Both the position numbers and the translations under genes were made by a program. Of a DNA stretch of 56,584 nt, positions 35,472-53,897 are shown piece by piece (positions within the stretch are counted from its first letter, which is position 1; every line of letters starts with the position of its first letter). The stretch is from Sedimentisphaerales bacterium (GTDB lineage: Bacteria; Planctomycetota; Phycisphaerae; Sedimentisphaerales; Anaerohalosphaeraceae), in contig JAFGPC010000205.1 of NCBI GenBank assembly GCA_016926155.1, positions 1 to 56,584 of the forward strand. The letters run 5' to 3'. Below the pieces are notes generated by a model. The model ran no database searches and had not been told where the DNA came from. It saw only the letters and a program-made list of their open reading frames with translations.

Positions 35472-37055
35472 TTATTTTTTGGTCCGTTTGTTTGCTTTGG
35501 GCGTGCCGTTCGCATTGAGATTCGCCCACGCCTTCGGCTCGGGGATCTCCGCGCAGACCTGCTCGTACATCGCCTTCCAGTCAATGCCGAGATACCCGCA
35601 GATGATCCTGGCCATTTCCTGCAGGTCCGCGGGCGTTTTGGTTTGCGGTCCGCTGTAGACCAGATGCGATTCGATGGTTTCCCGCAGCTGCTCCCAGTAC
35701 GAGGTAGCGACAGCCAATATATTTCCCATCTCATTTGATTCGAACTTTTCCGCTGCGTCCTTCCATGCTCGTACGCTCTGGCTGTCAGTCGAATGCGTTC
35801 CGAACTTTGTTCCGACCGCAAACAAAAACTGCATATTGTTCTTGGCAGTAATCTCTTCGATCAGCGTTTTCTGTATCGTCTCCCGGATGCGCCGCAGCAG
35901 CACGAACCAGCGTTTTGCTTCGTGAGCCTTGCGTCGCTCCTTCAGCGTGGAAGGTTTTTCGCTTTTGGCCTTTCGGGAGGTCGAGGCGCTGCGCCGCAAG
36001 CGGATCCATCGCAGTTCCCCAAAGCCCGGCCCGTACACCACCACCGCGGGCGTCGCGTCTTTGGCCTGTTTTTTCACGTTATCATAGTCGTACGCATGCA
36101 GGAATTTTCCGACGGCAGTCTCAATGGTCTTGTCGTCTGCGCCGTATTCGTTGGCGACCAGAACAAGATTGGGATACTTGGCGCGGCAATCGGCCACCCT
36201 CTGCTTGAGCCAGACCATCGACTTGGCCATCCAGCACGCCGCGTCCAGGCAGCGTTCGTCTTTGGCAAGCTTCTCGGCGCTGTTTTCCTCATGCCACAAC
36301 TCGGGCTGATAGCCCGATCGCTGCGAACACTGAAGACATGCAACGGCCTTGCGGGTTTTGCCCTCGATCTGCACCTCCATAATCCCGTCGAGATCCCACC
36401 GGGCCTGATGCAGCAGCCGGGTATACTCGACGATGGTCCGCTCGATGTCCCTGACCGAGGGAGCGCTGTACTGGAATCGCTGCAGCAAGGCCTTCTGCAG
36501 GTTCGGGGGACACTTGGCTATCACCGCCAGATGGCCCGCCGTCCAGCGGTTCGGTTCCCTGGCCGCCTTCTTGCTCCATTCGACGGAGAGATTCGCCTGG
36601 ATCTGCGCCCGTGTAGCTACCCAGCCTGGAGAACGGCCCAGCTTGCCGGCAACAGCTTTGGTGTCATTGCTGTATTTCTCCAGCAGCGTCGCCACCGCCT
36701 TGCCCTCTTCCAGCGGGGTTAAATCCTCGCGGGCGTAATTCTCCGTGAACGTCACTTCGAACGCTTCTTCGTCCGACAGTGCGCCCAGGTGGATCGCGGG
36801 GATCTGTTTGAGGCCTGCGGCCTGCGCACAGCGAAAACGACGCTCCCCGGCCAGCAGTTCCAGCTTGCCCTTTTTGCCGGGATGAACCCTGACATGCACC
36901 GGCACCATCACACCGTTGGCCTTGATGCTGTCCAGCAGTTGGCGAAAGCCATCGCTTTTTGTGTCGATGGTGCGCGGATTGAATCGTGTAGGCAAGATGT
37001 CGGTTAAAGCAACATGCATGTACGTTCCCGGCGGTTGTGTTTTGGTTGTGGTCAT
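35472..37055 (-). CDS. ParB-like protein of the phage replication module
   Basis: A 527-residue protein. Residues ~12-100 are a ParB N-terminal domain (DILPTRFNPRTIDTKSDGF, ELLAGERRFRCAQAAGLKQI with the conserved GERRxRA-type box, TENYAREDLTPLEEGKAV). A KorB-like helix-turn-helix follows (AVAGKLGRSPGWVATRAQI). The long C-terminal part is unrecognised, with two Cys pairs (ACLQCSQ, CLDAACW). Start 37055 overlaps the primase stop (ATGA). Length is about twice that of chromosomal ParB. It could serve plasmid-like maintenance or transcription control; no ParA is seen. Confidence 0.7.
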   Translation of the reverse strand: MTTTKTQPPGTYMHVALTDILPTRFNPRTIDTKSDGFRQLLDSIKANGVMVPVHVRVHPGKKGKLELLAGERRFRCAQAAGLKQIPAIHLGALSDEEAFEVTFTENYAREDLTPLEEGKAVATLLEKYSNDTKAVAGKLGRSPGWVATRAQIQANLSVEWSKKAAREPNRWTAGHLAVIAKCPPNLQKALLQRFQYSAPSVRDIERTIVEYTRLLHQARWDLDGIMEVQIEGKTRKAVACLQCSQRSGYQPELWHEENSAEKLAKDERCLDAACWMAKSMVWLKQRVADCRAKYPNLVLVANEYGADDKTIETAVGKFLHAYDYDNVKKQAKDATPAVVVYGPGFGELRWIRLRRSASTSRKAKSEKPSTLKERRKAHEAKRWFVLLRRIRETIQKTLIEEITAKNNMQFLFAVGTKFGTHSTDSQSVRAWKDAAEKFESNEMGNILAVATSYWEQLRETIESHLVYSGPQTKTPADLQEMARIICGYLGIDWKAMYEQVCAEIPEPKAWANLNANGTPKANKRTKK

Positions 37056-38830
37056 TCCGTGGTCTCCTTTGTGCTTTGGTCCTTTACGATTACGCCCTGC
37101 TCTGCAAAACGCAGGGATTGTCCGTCAAACCGAAATGCGATCTCCGTCCCCGCTCCGCGTCCGTTGCGTGTCTTGGCCAGATAGACCGAGCGGTTAAACT
37201 CGATTGCCGTTGTTCCGCATGCCGTCATTACAGGCATGCTCTTGTAGCCCTTGAGGTGTTGCAGCCACAGGATCGTTTGCGCGAATCGCTCGTAGGCTGC
37301 GCCCCCGGCCATGTCCTGAATCTGCGGCGGTCCCGCCTTGCGTGTTTTCTTGGGATGCGTCACCAGCACAAGCGACACGCCGTACTGACGGGAAATGTGC
37401 TTGATGCGGCTCATGAATTCCGAATCGGCCACCCAGGTATTTTCCACCTCAGCCACGGCGGTCACCGGATCAATCGCAATCACGCGGCACCCGTCCTTGG
37501 CGCGGGCCTCGATCCATTCGACAAGCTCCTTGCGGCTGCACTGCCGGTCGGGCGCTTCCCAGATGCAAAAGCCCAGACTGTCCAGCTTGTCCTGATTCTC
37601 CGCGACCATCTGCCGGGCCTGCTCGGCATTCCTCGCCACCCAGCCGCAATCGGTGACGTCCGACTGGTTGGCCAGTTGCGCCAATGCACGGAGCAGGTGA
37701 TAGCTTCGATCTTCCTCGAGCTCGTACACCGCCACCTTCACGCCCTGCGCATGCCACCACGCCACCGCCTCGATCAGCATGAAGCTCTTGGCCGATCCCG
37801 GATCCCCGCACAGCAGCGTTACCGTTCCCGGCAGCAAGGCGTTGGTCAGATCGGCAATGTTAGTCCACGGCCAGCCGATGGTTTTGCGTTCGCCCCGGAT
37901 CGTCTGCTCGATCACTTCCTGCACATCGCCTGCCGGTCCGACCGGTCGTGCTGCGCGCTGCAGTCCCTGCATCAGCAGTCGGTTTGCTTCTCCGGTGTTG
38001 CCGTGGACGGTGTGCATGAGCTCGGTGATTACATCCGCCGCATCCTTGCCGATGTCGCAGCCCATCTCGAACGGCTCGACCATCGTCAGGCCGGGTTTGG
38101 GTGTGAGCGTTTCCAGCCTGCGCCGTACCGTGTGCATATGCTCGCGACCGTTCGAATCGTTGTCCGGCCAAAGAACCACGTTCCTGCCGGCCAGCGGCGA
38201 CCAGTCGCAATACTCCGCTTTGCCCGCTCCGCATGGGCTGGTCGTTGCCGTGATCCCGATGCTTTGCAACGCGTGAACGCATTTTTCCCCCTCGACGACG
38301 ATCACAGTATCGGCCTGCAAAATCCGCGTGCGGTTGTACAGCGGCCACGGCTTGGGCGGCGCTTTCAACGCAAAGCCGCCGGGGACAGGTTGCACTTGCC
38401 GGAATTTCTTCTTGCCGTCCTCGGGGATGTAGCGAATGACGATCAGATCCTCGTGTCCCGTGGTCGGATTTGTGTACCGGTACACCTGTTCGATCCGGCC
38501 CGGCACATCGGCTAACACCAGATCCCACTCGGCGTAATGCTTGGCATTGTCCTGTTTGTCCCTTTGCGGCTTCTGGTCACGTTTGGGCAGCACTTCACCG
38601 AGAGGCTTGTTGAGCGCCCTGGCGCGAACGTCGAAGATGTCGCCGCCGAATCCGCACCCGTGGCACTTGAACCGCCAAACACCGTCGTCACCCCGGTACA
38701 CTCCTGCCGATGGGTTGCGGTCGTCGTGGAAAGGGCATTGAATCGCGCCGTTGCTCCGGATTTGTGCGCCGTGCATCTCGAGCTCGTTGAGCAGTTCCTG
38801 TCGGGACAAGCGTACGGTCTCAGTCTGCAT
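37052..38830 (-). CDS. Primase-helicase (CHC2 zinc finger, TOPRIM, RecA-like helicase)
   Basis: A 592-residue protein similar in layout to phage T7 gp4. The zinc motif is Cys32, His35 (CPFH), Cys56 and Cys59 (CHGC). TOPRIM: VIVVEGEKCVHAL near residue 180 and VLWPDNDSNG near 220. The helicase domain from about residue 310 has LLCGDPGSAKSFMLIEA (Walker A-like) and CRVIAIDPVTAV (Walker B). It would lay primers and unwind DNA at the fork. Start 38830 (MQTETVRLS) has GGAGGATGAGC upstream; an ATG two codons earlier is less well placed. It overlaps the initiator gene. Confidence 0.85.
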   Translation of the reverse strand: MQTETVRLSRQELLNELEMHGAQIRSNGAIQCPFHDDRNPSAGVYRGDDGVWRFKCHGCGFGGDIFDVRARALNKPLGEVLPKRDQKPQRDKQDNAKHYAEWDLVLADVPGRIEQVYRYTNPTTGHEDLIVIRYIPEDGKKKFRQVQPVPGGFALKAPPKPWPLYNRTRILQADTVIVVEGEKCVHALQSIGITATTSPCGAGKAEYCDWSPLAGRNVVLWPDNDSNGREHMHTVRRRLETLTPKPGLTMVEPFEMGCDIGKDAADVITELMHTVHGNTGEANRLLMQGLQRAARPVGPAGDVQEVIEQTIRGERKTIGWPWTNIADLTNALLPGTVTLLCGDPGSAKSFMLIEAVAWWHAQGVKVAVYELEEDRSYHLLRALAQLANQSDVTDCGWVARNAEQARQMVAENQDKLDSLGFCIWEAPDRQCSRKELVEWIEARAKDGCRVIAIDPVTAVAEVENTWVADSEFMSRIKHISRQYGVSLVLVTHPKKTRKAGPPQIQDMAGGAAYERFAQTILWLQHLKGYKSMPVMTACGTTAIEFNRSVYLAKTRNGRGAGTEIAFRFDGQSLRFAEQGVIVKDQSTKETTE

Positions 38831-39647
38831 GCTCATCCTCCAGCCCCAGCAGCTTGCGGGCTTCTTCCGGTGTGGGGTGACGGATGCCCAGCGCCTTTCG
38901 TACCTGGTCCTCGTACGTTTCCAGTTCGAGGATTTTCAGGTAGTTCGTGTCGTTTTTCAAAATCCAGTCCACCGTTGCTTTCCAGCCCCGGTCGTTTTCG
39001 CCGGTGTGGAACGGAGAATCGGCCAGCTTGTCCACGACAGTACGCCAGTGGTGTCGGAACTGCGCTTCCCGGCATCGCTTCCTGAGCCGGTCGAGTCGGC
39101 TTCCTGTGAGTTGCCGTATGATCGGCAGGACTTCTTTGGCGTTCCAGTATCGCACGAATTCCTGTGGGTCGATGGGCGGTTTCGCTTTTCCCTTTGGTGG
39201 GGAATCGGGTTGGGGGGGGACTATAGGGGGGGATTGTTTTCTCTTGTTATCTATAGGGGGGGTTATAGGGGGGGATGCGGATAGGGCTAAATTTTGTCCC
39301 TCATAGGGTTCTTTTTTAACCCTATCATGGATTGAGTTAGGGTTATTTTTTAGCCCTAACTTCTCTTCCATAGGGCTATTTTTTGGCCCTATGAAAATTA
39401 AAATCCGACGTCTTTTTGTGCCGGTTTTTTGTATCAAATCTTTGTGAATCAAGGCTTGAATTCGCGCTTTCACAGAGCTAAAACTGAGCCCCAGCATCGC
39501 CGCCAAATCTTTGATCTGCAGGGAGCATCCCTTGTCCCCATAAGCCATGATCCGGGCAAGGATGACCTTCTCGGCAAGACTTAAATCCGTCCGAGTCATG
39601 ACCTCGATCGGCATCCAGAAACCGCGCGTCTTATATGCTTTACTCAC
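38820..39647 (-). CDS. Phage replication initiator-like protein (lambda O-like) containing the origin
   Basis: A 275-residue protein starting with GTG at 39647 (GGAG 6 bases upstream). Residues ~10-95 are a winged-helix domain of the replication-organizer type (FWMPIEVMTRTDLSLAEKVI, LQIKDLAAMLGLSFSSVKAR). The middle (residues ~90-160) is low-complexity, Pro/Asn/Lys-rich (ITPPIDNKRKQ, PPIVPPQPDSPPKG) and coincides with an iteron cluster in the DNA. The C-terminal half is helical and may bind the helicase. The gene is directly upstream of primase-helicase. In lambda the origin likewise lies in the middle of gene O. Confidence 0.7.
   Translation of the reverse strand: MSKAYKTRGFWMPIEVMTRTDLSLAEKVILARIMAYGDKGCSLQIKDLAAMLGLSFSSVKARIQALIHKDLIQKTGTKRRRILIFIGPKNSPMEEKLGLKNNPNSIHDRVKKEPYEGQNLALSASPPITPPIDNKRKQSPPIVPPQPDSPPKGKAKPPIDPQEFVRYWNAKEVLPIIRQLTGSRLDRLRKRCREAQFRHHWRTVVDKLADSPFHTGENDRGWKATVDWILKNDTNYLKILELETYEDQVRKALGIRHPTPEEARKLLGLEDEHAD
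39211..39393. other. Candidate phage replication origin: ATAGGG iterons, four dyads, G-tracts
   Basis: Three copies of TATAGGGGGGG (39222, 39252, 39264) plus a G8 tract (39212-39219) are followed by four dyads. These are AGGG…CCCT (39283-39301), ATAGGGTT…AACCCTAT (39303-39325, perfect 8-bp arms), GTTAGGGTTA…TAGCCCTAAC (39336-39360) and CATAGGGC…GCCCTATG (39369-39393). Each dyad surrounds a T-rich loop. Dyad centres are about 22, 34 and 33 bases apart, near whole helical turns. All of it lies inside the initiator gene. Confidence 0.6.
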
Positions 39648-39744: not shown

Positions 39745-40233
39745 CTAAAAAGGAATATTGTCATTCGGGGGAATGTAATTCGGGTCATAGTTGGGATTGG
39801 AGTTCTGTCTGCCGCCCTGTGACGGCCTCTGCTGCTGGTTCCTGCCCTGAGGCGGAGATTGATTCCCCCTGCCCTGCTGTGAGCCGCTCTGCCCGTTGTC
39901 CTGCTTCGAGCCGAGCATCTGGATACCCTGAGCTACCACCTTGAGCTTCTGGCGGTTCTGGCCGCTCTGGTCGGTCCACTGATCCAGCTTGAGACGGCCA
40001 TAGACCAGCAGAGGGTCACCCTTGCGGACATACTGGCCTAACACCTCGGCGGTACGCTGCCAGGCCTCACAATCCACAAAGGTCACCTCCTGCTGCTCCT
40101 GCCCGTTCTGTCCGGTCCATTTGCGATTGATCGCAATGCCGAAACTGGCGACGGGGGTTTGCGATTGCGTGTACTGTACTTCGGGGTCACGCGTGACGTG
40201 ACCGGCTAAAACTACCTGATTGAATGATGGCAT
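39745..40233 (-). CDS. ssb: Single-stranded DNA-binding protein
   Basis: A 162-residue protein. OB fold in residues 1-105: NQVVLAGHVTRDPEVQYT, VASFGIAINRKW, VTFVDCEAWQRTAEVLGQYV, LLVYGRLKLDQW. A Gln/Gly/Asn-rich linker follows, then the C-terminal tip NDNIPF, the partner-docking peptide (usually DDDIPF). AAAGGAAGCCC precedes the ATG. It would protect single-stranded DNA during phage replication and recombination. Confidence 0.93.
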   Translation of the reverse strand: MPSFNQVVLAGHVTRDPEVQYTQSQTPVASFGIAINRKWTGQNGQEQQEVTFVDCEAWQRTAEVLGQYVRKGDPLLVYGRLKLDQWTDQSGQNRQKLKVVAQGIQMLGSKQDNGQSGSQQGRGNQSPPQGRNQQQRPSQGGRQNSNPNYDPNYIPPNDNIPF

Positions 40234-42729: not shown

Positions 42730-42801
42730 TAGCGGGGGATGGAGTCGAACCATCGACCTCCGGATTATGAATCCGGCGAGCTTCCTCTGCTCTACCCCGC
42801 T
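42730..42801 (-). tRNA. tRNA-Met (CAT)
   Basis: A full cloverleaf on the minus strand: acceptor AGCGGGG/CCCCGCT with discriminator A, D-arm GAGC/GCTC, anticodon arm CCGGA-TTCATAA-TCCGG, variable loop AGGTC, T-arm GATGG-TTCGACT-CCATC. CCA is not encoded. The anticodon CAT could be elongator Met, or Ile2 if the C is lysidine-modified. Initiator features (G-C triplets in the anticodon stem) are absent. A 71-base acceptor-to-acceptor length is slightly short but folds well. It lies at the head of the phage early operon. Confidence 0.85.
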
Positions 42802-43800: not shown

Positions 43801-44081
43801 GAGTCTCGGTTTCTTGTGATTTCTGTTCAATACGCTCTTTGATAGTCATGGCAATCGGGTCCATACCATCTCCGTTGGGATCAAAGAGTAGAAGTTGCCT
43901 TGCCCCGGTATCCCCGCAGTGGTTCGTTTGAATCAGGGTGAGCAACTGGGGAGGAATTATAAAGTTGCAGTTTAAGATTGCAATCAGATTTTTTGTCTTT
44001 TTGCATTGAAGATTCGCAGGTACTTGTTTGGCAAGAACTTGCGAGGAGGAAAAACTTTGGGAAAGAAGGATGGTGGTTTTC
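43801..44081. other. Region before cas3, no gene supported
   Basis: A leftward open frame crosses it, but it overlaps both neighbours antisense and has no recognisable features. The rightward sequence just before cas3 contains GAGGAGG (44043). A cas promoter is expected here; none is clear. Confidence 0.3.
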
Positions 44082-46403
44082 ATGCAGGAGTTTTATGCTC
44101 ACACTGATCCGGCCAATCCGGGAAAACTGCCAGAAGATGGGGCTTGCTGGCAGACACTAGAGGACCATCTCGAAAATACCGCACAACTTGCTCGCGATTA
44201 TGCGGAAGGCATCGGGGCGGGTGGCTTGGGGTATATTGCCGGGCTTCTGCATGATTTGGGAAAATATACGCGTGTATTCCAAGACTATCTGAAGCGAAGT
44301 GTGGCTGGCGAAGGAGTGACTCGCGGTGAAGTTATTCATGCCTTGCAAGGCGCAAAGTTTGCGAATGAGGCGATCAATGATTCTGTAATTACTGACATCA
44401 TTTGCAACGTAATCGCGACGCATCACGGAGGCTTGTTCGATAGCATTACCGATGGTCAAAGAACATTGATTTGCAAAACAGACAAAAGCGAAAACAAACT
44501 CCATTACGAGGAGGCAAGAAAGGAATTCAACCCCAGCATCAATGAAGCGGAACTAAAAACAGAAATTTTGAATTTCTGCAACACAAGCCAGTCAAAAGAT
44601 TTAAATCCATTCTTTATGCTGCATTTCCTGACAAAGGCCGTTTATTCCTGTGTAGTAGATGCAGATAGATGCAACAGTGCAGGTTTGGAAATCAACGATA
44701 CGAGACCGGACTGGGTGGAGTTGATTCAACAGTTGGATGCTTATCTGACTTCCTTTACTGAGGACAGCGACATTGACAGAGTTCGAAAGAGTATTTCCGA
44801 ACAATGTCGGGAAGGAGGTGGTCGGCAGCAGGGAATTTACACGCTGTCGGTTCCTACGGGTGGAGGTAAGACGTTGTCGAGCTTAAGGTTTGCCTTGGCA
44901 CATGCCCAAAAGCACAACCTGAAGCGTATTATTTACGTGATTCCTTATCTGTCCATTCTGGATCAAACCGCATCCAAGATGCATGATGTTTTTGCTGATG
45001 ATAGCGGCGAATTAATTTTGGAGCATCATTCCAATATTGAATTGCCGGAAAACGATGATGACGAGGTGCAGTATCGACTGTTGACTTCCCGTTGGGACAG
45101 CCCGATTGTTTTGACCACAATGGTGCAGTTTCTTGAGACGGTTTACAGCAATCGGGCATCAAAACTACGAAAATTTCACAACATGTCGGAGTCTGTTTTG
45201 ATTTTTGATGAAATTCAGGCTTTGCCGATAAAATGCGTCCACCTGTTCAATGAGGTAGCCAATTTTCTGCACACTTTTGGAAAATCAACCATTTTGCTTT
45301 GTACCGCAACGCAGCCGCATCTTCACAAGACCGAGCGTCCGGTACGATTGTCTGACAATCCAGATATCGTCAATATTACGTCGGATGATCTGAAAATATT
45401 TGAGAGGGTCTCTATTGAAGATAAAACTCAATCTGAAATGGATCATGAGCAAATCGCGGAGTTGGTTAAAAATCAAATCGAACAAGACAAAAGCACATTG
45501 GTCATTCTGAACACCAAAGGTGACGCCCGTCAGGTATATGAGCAATGCAAGAAGATTGAATGCGAGAAGGCTTTTTTAACAACGGACCTTTGTCCGGCAC
45601 ACCGACTGAGTATCCTTGATCGTTTGCGGGATAATCTCAAACCAGAAACTAGAAAGTTGACCTTGTGCGTCAGTACACAGCTTATCGAGGTTGGCGTGGA
45701 TGTATCGTTTGACTGTGTAATTCGCGCACAAGCGGGTATGGATAGCATTATTCAGGCCGCGGGACGCTGCAATCGCAATAGAGAAAACGCGACGCCTCAA
45801 TCGGTTTTTGTCGTCAACATACAGGATGAAAAACTTGCATACCTCCCAGAAATTCAAGAAGGGAAATCCGTTACGGAAAGAGTGTTTCATGAAAATCAAA
45901 ATAGCAACCTGTTAAGCGAAAAGGTGATTAGCCAGTTTTATGATTATTATTTTTACGCACAGAAGAACAAAATGGACTATAGCGTGCATGACGGACATAC
46001 AACTATATATAGCTTGCTCAATGACAATCCGTTAGGAACAGCGGCTTACCAAAACAGGAACAACAAGAACTACACAGGCTTGCCGTGTGCCTTTCAAACA
46101 GCGGCGGAGGCTTTTTCCGTCATTGACGGTTCCCAAGTCGGAGTAGTTGTTCCCTATGGGGACGCTTTGAAACTCATTAATAAGTTTGAGAATGATTATA
46201 GTCCGAAAGATAAAATGCGGATAATGAAGCAATTACAGAAGTACACGGTATCCGTTTATTCCGACGTGTTGATAAAACTCGATTATTCTGAACGAGCAAT
46301 TGAAAGGATTGACGACACATTCTACTTGCTGAGTCCAGATTACTATGACGCAAAAGAATATGGTTTAAGGCGTGAGGCGATGTTTTCACTATTAAATGCA
46401 TGA
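44082..46403 (+). CDS. cas3: Cas3, HD nuclease-helicase, type I-C
   Basis: A 773-residue protein. The start MQEFYAHTDPANPGK at 44082 fits homologues; the frame runs 18 codons further upstream. The N-terminal HD domain has LEDHLENTA, GLLHDLGKY (near residue 65) and ATHHGG (near 110). The helicase part has VPTGGGKTLSSLRFAL (Walker A, near 255), LIFDEIQALP (DExH box), LCTATQPHL and, C-terminal, STQLIEVGVDVSFDCVIR and QAAGRCNRN. After Cascade recognises a target, Cas3 unwinds and degrades the DNA. It heads the cas operon. Length is normal, and all motifs are present. Confidence 0.95.
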   Translation: MQEFYAHTDPANPGKLPEDGACWQTLEDHLENTAQLARDYAEGIGAGGLGYIAGLLHDLGKYTRVFQDYLKRSVAGEGVTRGEVIHALQGAKFANEAINDSVITDIICNVIATHHGGLFDSITDGQRTLICKTDKSENKLHYEEARKEFNPSINEAELKTEILNFCNTSQSKDLNPFFMLHFLTKAVYSCVVDADRCNSAGLEINDTRPDWVELIQQLDAYLTSFTEDSDIDRVRKSISEQCREGGGRQQGIYTLSVPTGGGKTLSSLRFALAHAQKHNLKRIIYVIPYLSILDQTASKMHDVFADDSGELILEHHSNIELPENDDDEVQYRLLTSRWDSPIVLTTMVQFLETVYSNRASKLRKFHNMSESVLIFDEIQALPIKCVHLFNEVANFLHTFGKSTILLCTATQPHLHKTERPVRLSDNPDIVNITSDDLKIFERVSIEDKTQSEMDHEQIAELVKNQIEQDKSTLVILNTKGDARQVYEQCKKIECEKAFLTTDLCPAHRLSILDRLRDNLKPETRKLTLCVSTQLIEVGVDVSFDCVIRAQAGMDSIIQAAGRCNRNRENATPQSVFVVNIQDEKLAYLPEIQEGKSVTERVFHENQNSNLLSEKVISQFYDYYFYAQKNKMDYSVHDGHTTIYSLLNDNPLGTAAYQNRNNKNYTGLPCAFQTAAEAFSVIDGSQVGVVVPYGDALKLINKFENDYSPKDKMRIMKQLQKYTVSVYSDVLIKLDYSERAIERIDDTFYLLSPDYYDAKEYGLRREAMFSLLNA

Positions 46404-46420
46404 TTAAAGGCAGGTGTTAA

Positions 46421-47200
46421 ATGGACAAAAAAAGAAACTCCGTTGAATTCAAGATCACGGGACGATATGCCTTATTTTCTGATCCCGTTACGCGTGTGGG
46501 CGGTGAGAAATTCTCCTATCAGGTCCCAACTTATCAGTCACTTAAAGGCATTCTCGAAAGTGTCTACTGGAAACCAACCTTGATTTGGTATATCGACGCT
46601 GTTCGAGTGGTAAATAAAATTCAGACTGAATCTAAAGGGATTAAAACACTGCAAATGGATGGAATTTATCCAAGCCAAAAAAATCCCAAGAAAAAGGAGG
46701 CTGCAACAACTGATCTCTCCTATTACACCTACTTGCGGGATGTGGAGTACCAGGTTCTTGCCCATTTTGATTGGAATTACCAACGAAAGAATCTCGAGGA
46801 TGATCGCGACGAAAACAAGCATCACAACATTGCCAAGCGTAGTATTAACAAGGGGGGGCGTCGTGACATCTTTCTTGGAGCTCGGGAATGTCAGGGTTAT
46901 GTCGAAGAATGTGTTTTCGGTGAAGGAGAGGGTTTTTACGATCAATATGGAGATCTGGACTTGGGCGTTATGTTTCACGGATACGACTATCCCGATGAAA
47001 CGGGAGAAGATGAGCTTGTCGTTCGCTTATGGCGAGCCAAGATGAAAGACGGCATCATCGAATTTCCGGCGCCAAAGGATTGTGATCATTCCTTGCGGCG
47101 ATTTATTCGTAAAATGACGGCAAAAGAATTCGAGAACAACCTAAACTTCACGCTCATCGACAACGACTCCAGCGTGGCGGATTTGGTGAAGGAGAATTGA
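46421..47200 (+). CDS. cas5c: Cas5c (Cas5d), crRNA-processing endoribonuclease, type I-C
   Basis: A 259-residue RAMP protein. In type I-C, Cas5 replaces Cas6 and cuts the repeat hairpin. Visible are FKITGRYALFSDPVTRVGGE at the N-terminus, VPTYQSLKGILESVYWKPT, and ENKHHNIAKRSINKGGRRD near residue 130, with the His pair and Lys/Arg expected near the active site. FLGARECQGYVEECVFGEG is the typical glycine-rich region. 17 bases separate it from cas3. Confidence 0.95.
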   Translation: MDKKRNSVEFKITGRYALFSDPVTRVGGEKFSYQVPTYQSLKGILESVYWKPTLIWYIDAVRVVNKIQTESKGIKTLQMDGIYPSQKNPKKKEAATTDLSYYTYLRDVEYQVLAHFDWNYQRKNLEDDRDENKHHNIAKRSINKGGRRDIFLGARECQGYVEECVFGEGEGFYDQYGDLDLGVMFHGYDYPDETGEDELVVRLWRAKMKDGIIEFPAPKDCDHSLRRFIRKMTAKEFENNLNFTLIDNDSSVADLVKEN

Positions 47201-47201
47201 A

Positions 47202-49205
47202 ATGGGATTCTGGCAGCATCTAGCGGACAGCTATGATAGAAACGCCGATGCATTGAAGAAAACGTATCCGCTTTCGACAACCTCCATCTCAAATAATACA
47301 GATATGATTGCCGTGATCGTTATTGACAATAACGGTAATTTCATCCGTTTTGAAAAGATGGACAAGAAGTCTTCCGGAAACAAAAAGGGGCTGGGTAATC
47401 CCCTCGTCAATATTACGATTCCTGTGACGGAAGAGAGCATGGGGCGTTCAAGCGGTATCGCACCACACCCAGTTTTTGACCAATATGAATATCTGAAAGG
47501 CAGTGGAAAAAAGTTTATTTCTTATTGTACACAACTGAAAGAGTTTGCGGAATCATCATTCGCAACCAAACAGCTTATGGCGATTTCTCAATATATTGCC
47601 AAACAAACCGTTGCTGTTGATTTGTCCGAAAATGGCTTGAAAGATAAAACATACATTGTTTTTCAGGTTGAAATACCGGGAAATCCGCAATCAAAAGTAT
47701 GGGAAGATGAGACATTCTTCAAAGCATGGCACCAATATTATCTATATGTAAAGAATCAGCGGGCTTATACAAAGAGAATGGCTAAAAAAGAATTGGCCGA
47801 AAATAAGAAATTGCCATCACCCGAGAAGAAACGCCTGAAAGAGCTTGCAAAGATGAAAGATATGATATCGGTGGACTATATTACTGGGGTTGAACAACCA
47901 ACAGCTATATATCATCCCAAAAAAATCTCGAATGCATCGGCAAATTCAAAGCTTGTTTCCGATAACGACAAAACGAATTACACGTTTCGAGGGAAATTCA
48001 GCGAATCATCAGAAGCCGTATCCATCGGCTATGAAACCACTCAAAAAGCGCATCAGTTTTTACGGTATCTCATCAATGATCAGAAAATTTACTGCGGCGA
48101 ACAAATTATTATATCTTTCACGGTAGGTTCAATGGAAAAAGTTTTGCCGCCACCTATAGAAGAAAAGAGCATTTGGAGCATTTTGCAGGAATCTGCGCCG
48201 CAAACAGAGAACGATATACAGATTCGTCTTCGTGCCGAAACGGGCTTTGATTATGCCGATGCTCTGAGGAAATCACTCGCTGGTTTTGGATACAAACAGA
48301 CATTGGGGCAACATGCCAGAACATTAGTGGTAGTATTGGATGCAGCAACAACAGGACGGTTGTCCATCACTTTTTACCGTGAATTGGATCGAACTGAATA
48401 CCTCGAAAAAATAGCCAACTGGCATGATCGGTGTAAATGGCATCAAAAATTCTGGGACAAGGAAAACGAAAAGTATATCCCTTATACCGGAGCCCCGTCC
48501 GTTGATAAAATCATTGAAGCCGTTCACGGCAAAGCCCGCAGCAGAAAGGACGAGGGCTACACAAAAATCAAGAAAGCAGCTCGGGAACGGTTACTTCGCT
48601 GTATATTTGACGGTGCGCTACTGCCAATAGATTTTATGGTGTCGGCAGTTCGACGGTCTTCCAATCCATTGGGAATTACAAAAAATGGAGTATTTGACCG
48701 CAATAATTTTGAACAGGTTGTATCAACAGCATGTGCCTTGATACGCAAGTATTATCAACAGACTGGAAAAGAGGACTACAAAATGAGTATTGAATTCAAC
48801 AGAACAGATCGCGATTACCTTTACGGTAGGTTGCTCGGCGCTGCGGATAAACTGGAGGAATACGCGCTCTACAAAATGGGTAACAAACGTATTGTTACTG
48901 CTGCCATCCGGCATATGCAAGCCTTTGCCCAGCGACCGTTCAGAACATGGCAAACAATACATAGTTGCCTTAATCCTTATATCCAGAAAGTGAAAGAAGG
49001 GTTTGCGTTTAATGAAATTCAAGCGATCAAAGATATGTTCAAGTCTGGCGACTATGAAACAGATACGCCGTTGAACGGTTCGTATCTGATAGGGTATTAT
49101 CACGAACGAGCGTATATAGACAACCTTGTTACGGCTGCTTCTAATAAAAGTATAAATAAATCTTCACATATCAACGAGAAGGAGAATGGCAATGACGGAC
49201 AATAA
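47202..49205 (+). CDS. cas8c: Cas8c (Csd1), large subunit of type I-C Cascade
   Basis: A 667-residue protein starting MGFWQHLADSYDRNADAL, one base after the cas5 stop, with AAGGAG upstream. NTDMIAVIVIDNNGNFIRFE and the C-terminal part LYGRLLGAADKLEEYALYK, RPFRTWQTIHSCLNPYIQKV and GSYLIGYYHERAYIDN are typical of Csd1. Cas8c recognises the PAM (5'-TTC-type in many I-C systems) and recruits Cas3. The C-terminal part may also be made separately as Cas11c from an internal start, e.g. MSIEFNRTDRDYLYG at 48783; this is known for I-C and is plausible here. Confidence 0.93.
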   Translation: MGFWQHLADSYDRNADALKKTYPLSTTSISNNTDMIAVIVIDNNGNFIRFEKMDKKSSGNKKGLGNPLVNITIPVTEESMGRSSGIAPHPVFDQYEYLKGSGKKFISYCTQLKEFAESSFATKQLMAISQYIAKQTVAVDLSENGLKDKTYIVFQVEIPGNPQSKVWEDETFFKAWHQYYLYVKNQRAYTKRMAKKELAENKKLPSPEKKRLKELAKMKDMISVDYITGVEQPTAIYHPKKISNASANSKLVSDNDKTNYTFRGKFSESSEAVSIGYETTQKAHQFLRYLINDQKIYCGEQIIISFTVGSMEKVLPPPIEEKSIWSILQESAPQTENDIQIRLRAETGFDYADALRKSLAGFGYKQTLGQHARTLVVVLDAATTGRLSITFYRELDRTEYLEKIANWHDRCKWHQKFWDKENEKYIPYTGAPSVDKIIEAVHGKARSRKDEGYTKIKKAARERLLRCIFDGALLPIDFMVSAVRRSSNPLGITKNGVFDRNNFEQVVSTACALIRKYYQQTGKEDYKMSIEFNRTDRDYLYGRLLGAADKLEEYALYKMGNKRIVTAAIRHMQAFAQRPFRTWQTIHSCLNPYIQKVKEGFAFNEIQAIKDMFKSGDYETDTPLNGSYLIGYYHERAYIDNLVTAASNKSINKSSHINEKENGNDGQ

Positions 49206-50019
49206 ATCTCTCACAAACAAAATTGATTTTGCAGTGATTATTTCTGTGAGACGGGCAAACCCAAACGGAGACCCACTGAACGGAAATCGTCCTCGCCAAA
49301 CTTACGATGGTTATGGTGAAATATCTGATGTTTGTCTCAAACGCAAAATCCGTAATCGGCTGCAGGATATGGGCGAATCTATCTTTGTCCAATCGGACGA
49401 TAATCGGGTCGATGAGCATCGTTCCTTAAAGAGCCGTTTTGATGCAGCTAAAATTCCTACTAAGGAAATAAGAGAGATATCCTGCAAAAAATGGTTTGAT
49501 GTTCGTGCGTTTGGTCAAGTCTTTGCATTCGGAAAAAATGAGGGAGCTGATGCAGTTTCCGTTGGAATTCGCGGCCCTGTAACTATCCAGAGTGCATTCA
49601 GCATTGAGCCGATTACACCAGATAGCCTGCAAATTGTCAAAAGTGTCAATCTTGAAACCAATGAGAAAGAGCCAGATAAGAAAGGCTCCGATACAATGGG
49701 AATGAAACATCGTGTTGATAAAGGGCTCTATGCTGCATACGGTGCTATCAACACACAACTTGCAAGTAAAACAGGTTTTACGGACAATGACGCCGAACAA
49801 ATCAAAAAAGCCCTTCAATCGCTATTCGTCAATGACGTATCTTCCGCTCGCCCGGAAGGAAGCATGGAAGTGGTGAAGGTAATATGGTGGAAGCATAACA
49901 GTCCTTGCGGTCAGTATTCCTCTGCAAAAGTGCATAGAAGTCTAAAGGTTGGCAAAGATGGAAATATTGACATTGACAATCTGGAAGGTTTGTCCCCTGA
50001 AGTTATTAATGGCCTTTAA
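49192..50019 (+). CDS. cas7c: Cas7c (Csd2), backbone of type I-C Cascade
   Basis: A 275-residue protein. The start MTDNKSLTNKIDF at 49192 has AAGGAG 7 bases upstream; ATG 49186 is too close to it. The gene overlaps cas8c by 14 bases. DFAVIISVRRANPNGDPLNG (cited in part) and VCLKRKIRNRLQD are the hallmark Csd2 N-terminus. WFDVRAFGQVFAF and VGIRGPVTIQSAFSIEPI follow. It binds the spacer part of the crRNA in several copies. Confidence 0.95.
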   Translation: MTDNKSLTNKIDFAVIISVRRANPNGDPLNGNRPRQTYDGYGEISDVCLKRKIRNRLQDMGESIFVQSDDNRVDEHRSLKSRFDAAKIPTKEIREISCKKWFDVRAFGQVFAFGKNEGADAVSVGIRGPVTIQSAFSIEPITPDSLQIVKSVNLETNEKEPDKKGSDTMGMKHRVDKGLYAAYGAINTQLASKTGFTDNDAEQIKKALQSLFVNDVSSARPEGSMEVVKVIWWKHNSPCGQYSSAKVHRSLKVGKDGNIDIDNLEGLSPEVINGL

Positions 50020-50693
50020 TGCTCACTGAAGATCAGCTTATCCCGATATCGGCTTTGCAGCACTATGTGTTCTGTCCGAGACAATGCGGATTGATTCATC
50101 TGGAACAGTTTTGGTCGGAGAATCGGTTCACCGCAGAGGGGAGACAATTGCACGAGCGTGTGCATGAAGCCGATAAAGAAAACCGTCCTGGCGTGCGGAT
50201 CGTCAGAGGCCTGCCCATCCGGTCCTATCGGCTGGGATTGGTCGGCCAGGCGGATGTTGTGGAGTTTCACCTGGCTGACCAGGGCATCCCGCTGTCCGAA
50301 GCCGATGGCTTGTGGCAGCCTTTTCCTGTCGAATACAAACGAGGCAAGCCGAAGTTGGGTAAGTGTGATCAGGTGCAGCTTTGCGCCCAGGCGATCTGTC
50401 TCGAAGAGATGCTAAATACGGATGTGCCCAATGGGGCGTTTTTCTACGGCAAGCCGAGACGCAGGACCGAAGTGGAATTTACCAAAGACCTGAGAAACTA
50501 TACCGAAGAGATCGCCCGCCAAATACACCTGTTGCTCGATCAAAAACGCACGCCGACAGCCGCCTATTCTAAAAAGTGCAATAGCTGCTCTTTATACGAA
50601 CGATGCCTTCCGAAGACAACGGGGATCAAAAAGAAAATCGATCTCTATCTGGCAAAAGCATTCGAGGAATCTTTGGGGGAAGACGATTCATGA
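50019..50693 (+). CDS. cas4: Cas4, PAM-selecting exonuclease
   Basis: A 224-residue protein. FCPRQCGLIHLEQ (Cys19, Cys23) and CNSCSLYERCLP near residue 190 supply four Cys for a 4Fe-4S cluster. RecB-type nuclease motifs: GQADVVEF, FPVEYKRGKPK, and QLCAQAICLEE (QxxxY-like position). It trims prespacers and checks the PAM during spacer acquisition. ATG overlaps the cas7 stop (TAATG), and its own stop overlaps cas1. GC content rises here relative to cas3-cas7. Confidence 0.95.
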   Translation: MLTEDQLIPISALQHYVFCPRQCGLIHLEQFWSENRFTAEGRQLHERVHEADKENRPGVRIVRGLPIRSYRLGLVGQADVVEFHLADQGIPLSEADGLWQPFPVEYKRGKPKLGKCDQVQLCAQAICLEEMLNTDVPNGAFFYGKPRRRTEVEFTKDLRNYTEEIARQIHLLLDQKRTPTAAYSKKCNSCSLYERCLPKTTGIKKKIDLYLAKAFEESLGEDDS

Positions 50694-51721
50694 AGCAATT
50701 GCTCAACACGCTGTTTGTCACTACGCAGGGAGCCTACCTGTCAAAAAAAGGAGACACGGTGGAGGTCCGTCATGAGCAGGAGACCAAGTTACGGGTGCCG
50801 ATTCACAATCTGGGATCTATAGTCTGTTTCGGCAACATCACATGCAGCCCATTTTTGATGGGACTTTGCGGCGAGCGGAATGTGACCGTTTCCTTCCTGA
50901 CGGAGAGAGGGCGATTTCTGGCTAGGGTACATGGACCTGTCAATGGGAATGTACTTCTTCGCAAGGAACAATACCGAAGATCGGACAACGAGGTCCAGGT
51001 TGCCTCTATGGCCAGAGTATTCGTCCTGGCCAAGATCGCCAATACCCGTATTGTTCTGCAAAGGAGCCTTCGTGACCGACCGGACACAACGGATGGTACC
51101 GAAGTACAGAAGGTTGTCGATGCTCTGGCTGGTTGTCTTGAGGGGTTGAAGAATAAAGTAGATGCAAACACGGCTCGAGGAATTGAAGGCCGGGCAGCGA
51201 ATCTCTACTTTTCGGTGTTCGACCATTTGATTACCTCCGAGAAAGAATCTTTCTATTTCAAAGGACGGTCCAGACGGCCACCCACCGATAACATGAACGC
51301 CTTGTTGTCCTTCCTTTACACGCTATTGGTACATGATATTACGTCCGCTTTGGAAGGAGTGGGCCTTGATCCGGCTGTAGGTTTTTTGCATCGGGACCGG
51401 CCTGGACGGCCCAGTTTTGCCCTCGATTTGATGGAAGAGCTACGCGCATATCTGGCGGATCGTCTGGCCTTGTCCCTGGTCAATCGCCAGCAGGTCAAGC
51501 CGGGAGGATTTCAGAAAACCGAATCAGGGGCTGTCACCATGGATGATCCGACACGGAAGGAGGTTCTTATGGCGTGGCAGAAACGCAAACAGGAGACAAT
51601 TACGCATCCATTTCTGCAGGAAAAGATCGAGATTGGGCTTCTACCCCATATCCAGGCCATGCTTGTGGCTCGTTACTTGCGGGGGGATCTCGACGGCTAT
51701 CCACCATTCCTGTGGCGATAA
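50690..51721 (+). CDS. cas1: Cas1, spacer integrase
   Basis: A 343-residue protein starting MKQLLNTLFVTTQGAYLSKK (ATGA overlap with cas4). Catalytic region: GIEGRAANLYFSVFDHL with Glu near residue 165, then LHRDRPGRPSFALDLMEE with the conserved His and acidic residues near 230-245. It forms the integration complex with Cas2. Full length, all key residues present, so acquisition may be active. Confidence 0.96.
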   Translation: MKQLLNTLFVTTQGAYLSKKGDTVEVRHEQETKLRVPIHNLGSIVCFGNITCSPFLMGLCGERNVTVSFLTERGRFLARVHGPVNGNVLLRKEQYRRSDNEVQVASMARVFVLAKIANTRIVLQRSLRDRPDTTDGTEVQKVVDALAGCLEGLKNKVDANTARGIEGRAANLYFSVFDHLITSEKESFYFKGRSRRPPTDNMNALLSFLYTLLVHDITSALEGVGLDPAVGFLHRDRPGRPSFALDLMEELRAYLADRLALSLVNRQQVKPGGFQKTESGAVTMDDPTRKEVLMAWQKRKQETITHPFLQEKIEIGLLPHIQAMLVARYLRGDLDGYPPFLWR

Positions 51722-51737
51722 GAAACGGAGAATTACG

Positions 51738-52028
51738 ATGATGGTATTGGTGGCATATGATGTGAATACAGAAAGCCCAGAAGGACAACGGCGTCTGCGT
51801 CATGTTGCTAAACTTTGTGAAAATCGGGGCCAGCGTGTGCAGAACTCGGTATTCGAATGTCTGATAGATCCTGCTCAATGGGTAGAACTTCGAGGTAATC
51901 TGATTGGTGTGATCAATCAGGAACGAGACAGCCTTCGATTTTACTTTTTAGGGAAGAACTGGAAAAAACGGGTGGAGCATGTAGGAGCAAAGCCATCCTA
52001 TGATCCACAAGGTCCACTGATCGCATAA
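51738..52028 (+). CDS. cas2: Cas2, integration-complex subunit
   Basis: A 96-residue protein. MMVLVAYDVNTESPEGQRRL has the ferredoxin-like first strand with Asp8; RVQNSVFECLIDPAQW and RFYFLGKNW complete the core. GGAG is 7 bases before the ATG at 51738. Last gene of the operon, followed by the leader and the array. Confidence 0.95.
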   Translation: MMVLVAYDVNTESPEGQRRLRHVAKLCENRGQRVQNSVFECLIDPAQWVELRGNLIGVINQERDSLRFYFLGKNWKKRVEHVGAKPSYDPQGPLIA

Positions 52029-52214
52029 AAAACAATTCGCGAACCAGAAGCAAACAGGAAATGTCTGGCAGGTTCGCGGAAAATGTAAATGGCTATTTGG
52101 CAAGTAGATAGAGAAATATGGGATTGAATGTGGTTGGTCTTGATTGAGAAACAGTCCAAGTTCGCGGAAGCTTCTCTATTAATCCTGTTAGACAAACGAG
52201 TTAATAATAGTACA
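52029..52214 (+). promoter_or_regulatory. CRISPR leader
   Basis: An AT-rich 186-base stretch between cas2 and the first repeat. CGCGAACC (52038-52045) and GGTTCGCG (52071-52078) form a perfect inverted repeat that may end cas transcription. TTCGCGGAA occurs at 52073 and again at 52161. Promoter boxes are not obvious. Confidence 0.7.
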
Positions 52215-53897
52215 GTCGCCCCCTGCATGGGGGCGTGGATTGAAACTAAGGAGTAAGATTATGGATTTTGGACTGGCTAGTCGCCCCCTGCATGGGGGCG
52301 TGGATTGAAACTTAGGAGAGCAAGAAGTACTTAATCGAGAAATTTTGTCGCCCCCTGCATGGGGGCGTGGATTGAAACGATGAGGCGATGCATAGAATTA
52401 AAAATGCCGAAAGGTCGCCCCCTGCATGGGGGCGTGGATTGAAACTACATAATACATTTTTTACTCTCCTACACTCTTGTCGCCCCCTGCATGGGGGCGT
52501 GGATTGAAACCACTGTGGGGAGTATGGATCTCAAAAAGATCGTCGTCGCCCCCTGCATGGGGGCGTGGATTGAAACCGATTTATGTGGATGAAATTTTGC
52601 CGGGTGATAGGTCGCCCCCTGCATGGGGGCGTGGATTGAAACATATTAGAAATGGTCTATCTGTCCAGGAACTGCGTCGCCCCCTGCATGGGGGCGTGGA
52701 TTGAAACCCATCGGATAACGATGATTTGGCGAAGAGACAGTTGTCGCCCCCTGCATGGGGGCGTGGATTGAAACTACGAGTCATGTCGAATTTGATGAGG
52801 CGATGAACGTCGCCCCCTGCATGGGGGCGTGGATTGAAACTGGATTGCAAGCCGATCTGAGTACGGCTACAGCGTCGCCCCCTGCATGGGGGCGTGGATT
52901 GAAACTAAAAATGAGAGAGATTAAAGGGAATTAAGATGGTCGCCCCCTGCATGGGGGCGTGGATTGAAACTGCAAAAAGCAAAGGCCATCAATGATGCTG
53001 TTGAGTCGCCCCCTGCATGGGGGCGTGGATTGAAACTTTACGGGGGTGCGGATAGTGGAAAATCGCGGTGTCGCCCCCTGCATGGGGGCGTGGATTGAAA
53101 CCTCAGGCGGCAATGGAACGGGAGATTCGACAGGCTGTCGCCCCCTGCATGGGGGCGTGGATTGAAACCTGTAACCGGAATTCCGTATCCGGCGGCATCG
53201 GAGTCGCCCCCTGCATGGGGGCGTGGATTGAAACAACTACACCGGATATATCTTCCCCGCCGTCACGGTCGCCCCCTGCATGGGGGCGTGGATTGAAACG
53301 TACCTATCAGCCTATATGCTCTCATCGGTGAAGGTCGCCCCCTGCATGGGGGCGTGGATTGAAACCGTTTGTAGACTCCCTACACTACCGTGTCCCCCCG
53401 TCGCCCCCTGCATGGGGGCGTGGATTGAAACATGGGTGAGCACGAATCGGCTGGACCTCAGGATAGTCGCCCCCTGCATGGGGGCGTGGATTGAAACTTG
53501 TTCTCCCAGGAACGCTAATCCCGGCCAATAGGTCGCTCCCTTCACGGGAGCGTGGATTGAAACAATATTACGTTCGGGTCCGTGTCCGTTGACGATAATG
53601 TCGCTCCCTTCACGGGAGCGTGGATTGAAACGAGAACGAAGGCGAGGCCATCTATATCGTCAGCCTGTCGCTCCCTTCACGGGAGCGTGGATTGAAACGG
53701 CGTAGAGATTACGGAGACCGAACAGACGACGAGTCGCTCCCTTCACGGGAGCGTGGATTGAAACGTCAACAACAGATAGCCATGGCGCAGACGATATTGT
53801 CGCTCCCTTCACGGGAGCGTGGATTGAAACATGAACACATCTTACAGCCCAATCTCTTGTACGATGTCGCTCCCTTCACGGGAGCGTGGATTGAAAC
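52215..53897 (+). CRISPR. Type I-C CRISPR array, 26 repeats / 25 spacers, two repeat versions
   Basis: Repeats are 32 bases; spacers are 33-36 bases. Repeats 1-20 (52215-53497) start GTCGCCCCCTGCAT and repeats 21-26 (53532-53897) start GTCGCTCCCTTCAC; all end GTGGATTGAAAC. Versions differ at positions 6, 11, 14 and 18. Positions 6 and 18 pair in the hairpin stem (C-G versus T-A), so pairing is kept; 11 and 14 are in the loop. No intermediate version and no degenerate last repeat are present. The leader is at the cas2 side, so the first block is the younger one. Confidence 0.97.

Follow-up and report, generated by a model that had tools for sequence, protein, structure and literature searches.

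A candidate iteron origin nested in the O-like initiator gene of a Sedimentisphaerales prophage

The contig JAFGPC010000205.1 of a Sedimentisphaerales bacterium (assembly GCA_016926155.1), of which the whole 56,584-nucleotide (nt) stretch analysed is called here the window, carries a prophage whose minus-strand replication initiator gene contains a compact array of short repeats at positions 39205-39393. We conclude that this array is very probably the prophage replication origin, a nested lambda-type iteron origin lying in the linker-coding part of the gene and bound by the product of the same gene. An origin inside the initiator gene had been suggested by an earlier sequence-only reading. 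That suggestion is supported by constraint acting at the DNA level, the coincidence of array and linker, the lambda O control, recurrence in 48 of 92 related genes, spacing by the helical turn, covariation of the iterons with the N-terminal domain, the fact that duplex stability in the replication module is lowest in the dyads, and the adjacency of a primase-helicase gene.

The repeat array and its place in the initiator gene

The initiator gene (38820..39647, minus strand) encodes a 275-residue protein and most likely starts with the GTG at 39647, six bases downstream of a GGAG. The product matched phrog_345 'replication initiation O-like' (E=8.4e-25), which places it in the O-like initiator family, and also phrog_10469 'DnaD-like helicase loader' (E=3.2e-16); the match to Pfam Phage_rep_O was sub-threshold (15.7 bits, cut-off 28.7). 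In the AlphaFold2 model, judged region by region, a confident winged helix (residues ~10-88) is followed by a disordered linker (~89-153) and a helical C-terminal domain (~158-253), aligned as a replisome-organizer/DnaD-like type; the overall predicted local distance difference test score (pLDDT) is modest, 65.7. Sequence searches of the PDB with the initiator gave no useful match. Foldseek returned weak winged-helix matches for the model (best E 0.011), the best of them being MarR/ArsR-type repressors. The array encodes residues ~85-146, which in this model form the disordered linker between the winged-helix and C-terminal domains, and the linker protein is of low complexity (PPITPPID...SPPIVPP). 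Because the linker protein is predicted to be disordered, its codons would be free to carry DNA sites.

The array region contains ten TAGGG/CCCTA half-sites, while elsewhere in the contig there are at most two per 183 nt. ATAGGG is found in eight copies at 39223-39392 (six on the plus and two on the minus strand), and eight more are scattered over the remaining 56.4 kb. The repeat cluster described by the sequence-only reading is confirmed by these counts. Mapping of word and dyad positions, together with the shuffle test described below, delimits an iteron/dyad part (39282..39391) of alternating TAGGG and CCCTA half-sites with A/T-tract dyad centres. Four dyads had been claimed here; three TAGGG-N11-CCCTA dyads are strong (39304-39324, 39338-39358, and 39371-39391) and the fourth is degenerate (TAGGG...GTCCCTC, 39282-39300). 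The dyad starts are 22, 34, and 33 bp apart. The adjoining part (39205..39274), delimited by tract counts and a G4Hunter-type score, contains a G8 tract and three same-direction half-sites with G-tract extensions; these are the three exact copies of one form reported earlier, TATAGGGGGGG, at 39222-39232, 39252-39262, and 39264-39274.

The repetition was evaluated by shuffling synonymous codons within the gene, keeping protein and codon usage, and counting matched 7-mer pairs in the best 180 nt over 300 shuffles; this test reports arrays, not binding. The initiator gene has 43 matched pairs vs. 6.9±2.4 in the shuffled versions, none of the 300 scoring as high. With the C-tract part removed, the dyad part alone still gave 25 pairs vs. 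4.2±2.1 (0/300). Lambda O, used as a positive control, scored 34 vs. 6.8±2.2, and none of six neighbouring genes was significant. CCCTA occurs in all three codon frames of the initiator gene, indicative of a repetition that belongs to the DNA and not to the protein. Within the host genome (5.0-Mb assembly) the three-half-site pattern with the observed spacings is unique to this locus, and none of 396 further genomes of the class contains it. When IMG/VR was scanned for the dyad pattern, three matches came up; they have no comparable array around them and were judged to be due to chance. Motifs and spacings to analyse were selected once the data had been inspected; the permutation and shuffle tests cover chance but not every parameter choice.

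Arrays in related initiators

The family, order, class and IMG/VR provided 92 genes related through the C-terminal domain or phrog_345; many were recruited through weak profile matches, and phage status was not checked singly. A repeat array at z>=5 was observed in 48 of the 92 related initiators vs. 1 of 58 control genes (genes of the same loci and the window), and array centres lie at 0.44 of gene length (interquartile range 0.405-0.47). A nested array is thus common, but not universal, among these initiators. The repeat word itself varies from gene to gene: TACTTTCG-N8-CGAAAGTA in L012, CGCAAAGTA in L005, TACGAACAATTGTGCGC in L004, CCGAC/GTCGG in L006, AACAGTG...CACTGTT in L075, AACCCCGTC in L038 and L035, GAGCAACC in L053, and others. 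Judged from these sequences, the relatives conserve the architecture and not the word. The refuting condition set by the sequence-only reading, conserved initiator protein without conserved ATAGGG spacing, has to be recast: the collections yielded no close orthologue, and what the relatives share is the arrangement.

In 44 non-redundant genes, repeats are spaced at 22 bp in 31 genes (6.2 expected), at 44 bp in 18 (3.7 expected) and at 11 bp in 17 (4.0 expected); spacings of 23 and 46 bp are also in excess, and the period that fits best is ~11.25 bp. Repeat spacing is set by the DNA helix, 22 bp being about two turns, and not by codons. Gene pairs with similar N-terminal sequence, compared over up to 95 residues ahead of the array, share repeat words ~12 times more than other pairs (2/2000 permutations), and this sharing persists between genes with unlike linker proteins, such as L037/L070 and L032/L100. 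An N-terminal domain that reads the repeats would be expected to produce such tracking of N-terminal similarity. The region up to about 1-2.5 kb downstream of the related initiators encodes, among others, DnaB-type helicases, AAA_25 helicases, DnaC/IstB-like loaders, and DnaG zinc-finger primases.

Several arrays show features of their own. Gene L070 carries an extreme array near initiator codons 94-172, with ten copies of GGTCTAA whose spacing alternates between 23 and 34 bp (two and three helical turns). The arrays of L009, L010, L017, L052, L053, and L058 consist mostly of direct repeats spaced 11-12 bp apart, and some of these genes have a different type of N-terminal domain; their sequences suggest that the nested array is retained upon a swap of the DNA-binding domain. 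In many relatives with unrelated iterons a second word, GAACC(A/G) or AAAGAA, often repeated every 6-17 nt, lies directly downstream of the array (L020, L032, L038, L040, L056, L074, L099, L100), and in L099 its spacing shifts the reading frame. This word may represent an unwinding or helicase-loading element common to these genes.

Proposed mechanism and alternatives

Taking lambda (PMC7466680, PMC5043065) and SPP1 (PMC6316719) as models, we propose that the winged helix of the initiator would bind the TAGGG/CCCTA half-sites, with the dyads probably occupied by dimers. The bound initiators would assemble an O-some-like complex that bends and wraps the DNA, and bending together with negative supercoiling could open A/T-tract-rich DNA in the dyads or next to them. 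Through its C-terminal domain the initiator would then recruit the phage primase-helicase, the product of the adjacent gene, onto the single strand, leading to theta replication from the array. A nearest-neighbour stability scan places the likely unwinding element inside the dyads: 39344..39403 is the most unstable 60 bp of the 34.0-42.3 kb region and lies at the 99.2nd percentile of the prophage.

Several observations weigh against an origin at the array. There is no separate AT-rich tract downstream of it as in lambda, that side being GC-rich and C-rich on the coding strand; the relatives, like lambda, have more A in the 60 nt directly downstream of the array than their codons predict (z 7.4). 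No close orthologue was found in IMG/VR, GTDB contigs, INPHARED phages, or PLSDB, only distant relatives recovered mostly through the C-terminal domain, so the conservation observed concerns the architecture and not the exact TAGGG sites. The repeats of the relatives rest partly on weak phrog_345 matches, and the better-matching L003 (z=2.2) and L007 (z=1.1) have no significant array. GC skew lends no support either. A cumulative GC-skew check had been proposed for the origin, and the minimum falls at ~42 kb, at the switch from minus-strand prophage to plus-strand host genes. Since all replication genes lie on one strand, this minimum follows gene direction and is evidence neither for nor against an origin at 39.3 kb.

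The G-tracts offer a different view of how such an origin might open. Four of them, at 39212-39219 (8 nt) and at 39226-39232, 39256-39262, and 39268-39274 (7 nt each), form a block that is C-rich on the coding strand and G-rich on the plus (template) strand, and three of the four extend TATAGGG half-sites. The gene contains four runs of at least seven C, for which the synonymous expectation is 0.72 on average and never above three in 2000 shuffles, and the G4Hunter-type score reaches its contig maximum here (2.3 at 39207). The tracts are real and unlikely to have arisen by chance. The quadruplex idea of the sequence-only reading finds no comparative support: L040, alone of the 92 relatives, shows a pair of C7 runs next to its array, so the tracts are not conserved and, as far as these sequences tell, stand outside the common design of the arrays. 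We consider it unlikely that the origin makes use of the G7-8 tracts, with the G-rich strand forming a quadruplex upon duplex opening and keeping the origin open in place of the AT-rich tract of lambda. Because the relatives do not have them, we treat the tracts as incidental or as a local elaboration; a local role is possible.

Other functions of the array were weighed against its use as an origin. The initiator could bind its own gene mainly as an operator, repressing or pausing transcription by autoregulation or as a roadblock, with replication starting elsewhere. MarR/ArsR-type repressors, the best of the Foldseek matches, also bind dyads by a winged helix, but the array lies in mid-gene and not at a promoter, the mid-gene recurrence is specific to initiators, the array includes the least stable DNA of the module, and sites so placed in lambda and SPP1 serve as origins (PMC7466680, PMC6316719); we regard a purely regulatory array as improbable. 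It seems very unlikely to us that the dyads serve the replication transcript as successive mRNA hairpins that govern its translation or decay. The transcript does fold at -48.1 kcal/mol (z -6.5 vs. shuffles) with three strong hairpins, yet such folding comes with any row of dyads, the arrays of L035, L023, L034, and L053 are mostly direct repeats that form no hairpin, spacing tracks the DNA helix, and repeat identity tracks the DNA-binding domain.

Even less credence is given to centromere-like targets of a ParB-like protein. The gene for such a protein (ParB_N/HTH_ParB, 35472-37055) lies two genes downstream of the initiator, but no ParA-type match was seen among the genes scanned, and in the relatives the arrays accompany the initiator and the repeats covary with its own N-terminal domain. 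The low complexity of the proline-rich linker could invite the view that the repeats merely reflect coding sequence, or chance. This explanation is ruled out by the synonymous shuffles, also with the proline part removed, and by the use of all three frames, and we assign it a negligible probability.

Genomic setting and relation to known origins

The prophage replication block comprises ssDNA-annealing (single-stranded DNA-annealing)/Sak4-like, NinB-like, Gp157, single-stranded DNA-binding, initiator, primase-helicase, and ParB-like genes. The primase-helicase gene (37052..38836, minus strand; CHC2 zinc finger plus RecA-like AAA_25, identified by phrog_239, AAA_25, and Zn_ribbon_DnaG) overlaps the end of the initiator gene, and its product is the probable client of the initiator. 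The single-stranded DNA-binding protein gene (39745..40233, minus strand; PF00436 E=1.9e-32) lies directly upstream of the initiator in the same gene block. A tRNA-Met (CAT) at 42730-42801 stands at the edge of the replication block and is a plausible integration site; no integrase was seen among the proteins scanned, and a search for attachment repeats within 26 kb found only a 14-bp repeat, judged to be chance. Host genes of the 5.0-Mb assembly, including a type I-C cas operon, lie beyond 43 kb. This clustered regularly interspaced short palindromic repeats (CRISPR)-Cas locus (44028-53897) contains cas3, cas5, csd1/cas8c, cas7, cas4, and cas1; the array that comes after them has 26 repeats of two kinds, GTCGCCCCCTGCATGGGGGCGTGGATTGAAAC nearer the cas genes and GTCGCTCCCTTCACGGGAGCGTGGATTGAAAC farther off. 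None of its 25 spacers matched the rest of the contig, prophage included, within nine mismatches.

The prophage array resembles the lambda origin in O, where an initiator with an N-terminal DNA-binding domain has inverted-repeat iterons in mid-gene, with A-tract centres and G-tract arms (PMC7466680). The annotated lambda ori iterons are located in the middle of O, iteron spacing in lambda, lambdoid, and Stx phages is about 20-24 bp, and the same repeat test flags both lambda O and the prophage initiator. The arm order is reversed, TAGGG-N11-CCCTA in the prophage vs. CCCT...AGGG in lambda, the prophage dyads differ from the lambda iterons in their spacing of 22, 34, and 33 bp, and a C/G-tract block takes the place downstream of the array that an AT-rich tract has in lambda. 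The next gene encodes a primase-helicase in the prophage (phrog_239 E=9e-57) and a P-type loader of the host helicase in lambda, so the prophage does not have a lambda module in the strict sense; a P-type loader, however, defines lambda itself and not nested origins generally. Bacillus phage SPP1 oriL, in gene 38, is also alike in that the initiator binds repeats in its own gene, with a DNA unwinding element (PMC6316719). This likeness is one of description, and SPP1 differs in its direct repeats, a second origin, oriR, and the separate loader gp39. Iteron plasmids share phased repeats bound by an initiator (PMC5043065), and RepA-type prophage replicons (P1, mycobacteriophage Miko) have a RepA-type initiator, with no repeats identified in Miko (PMC7157519).

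The prophage array joins an already known kind of origin. Phage origins are difficult to annotate, and nested ones are known from a few model phages. Of the O-like initiators sampled here from one bacterial class and IMG/VR, roughly half show this architecture, with many unrelated iteron sequences. If confirmed, the synonymous-shuffle repeat test applied to the initiator linker would be a simple sequence rule for locating phage origins, and the genes would provide a natural set of protein/site pairs for learning winged-helix recognition.
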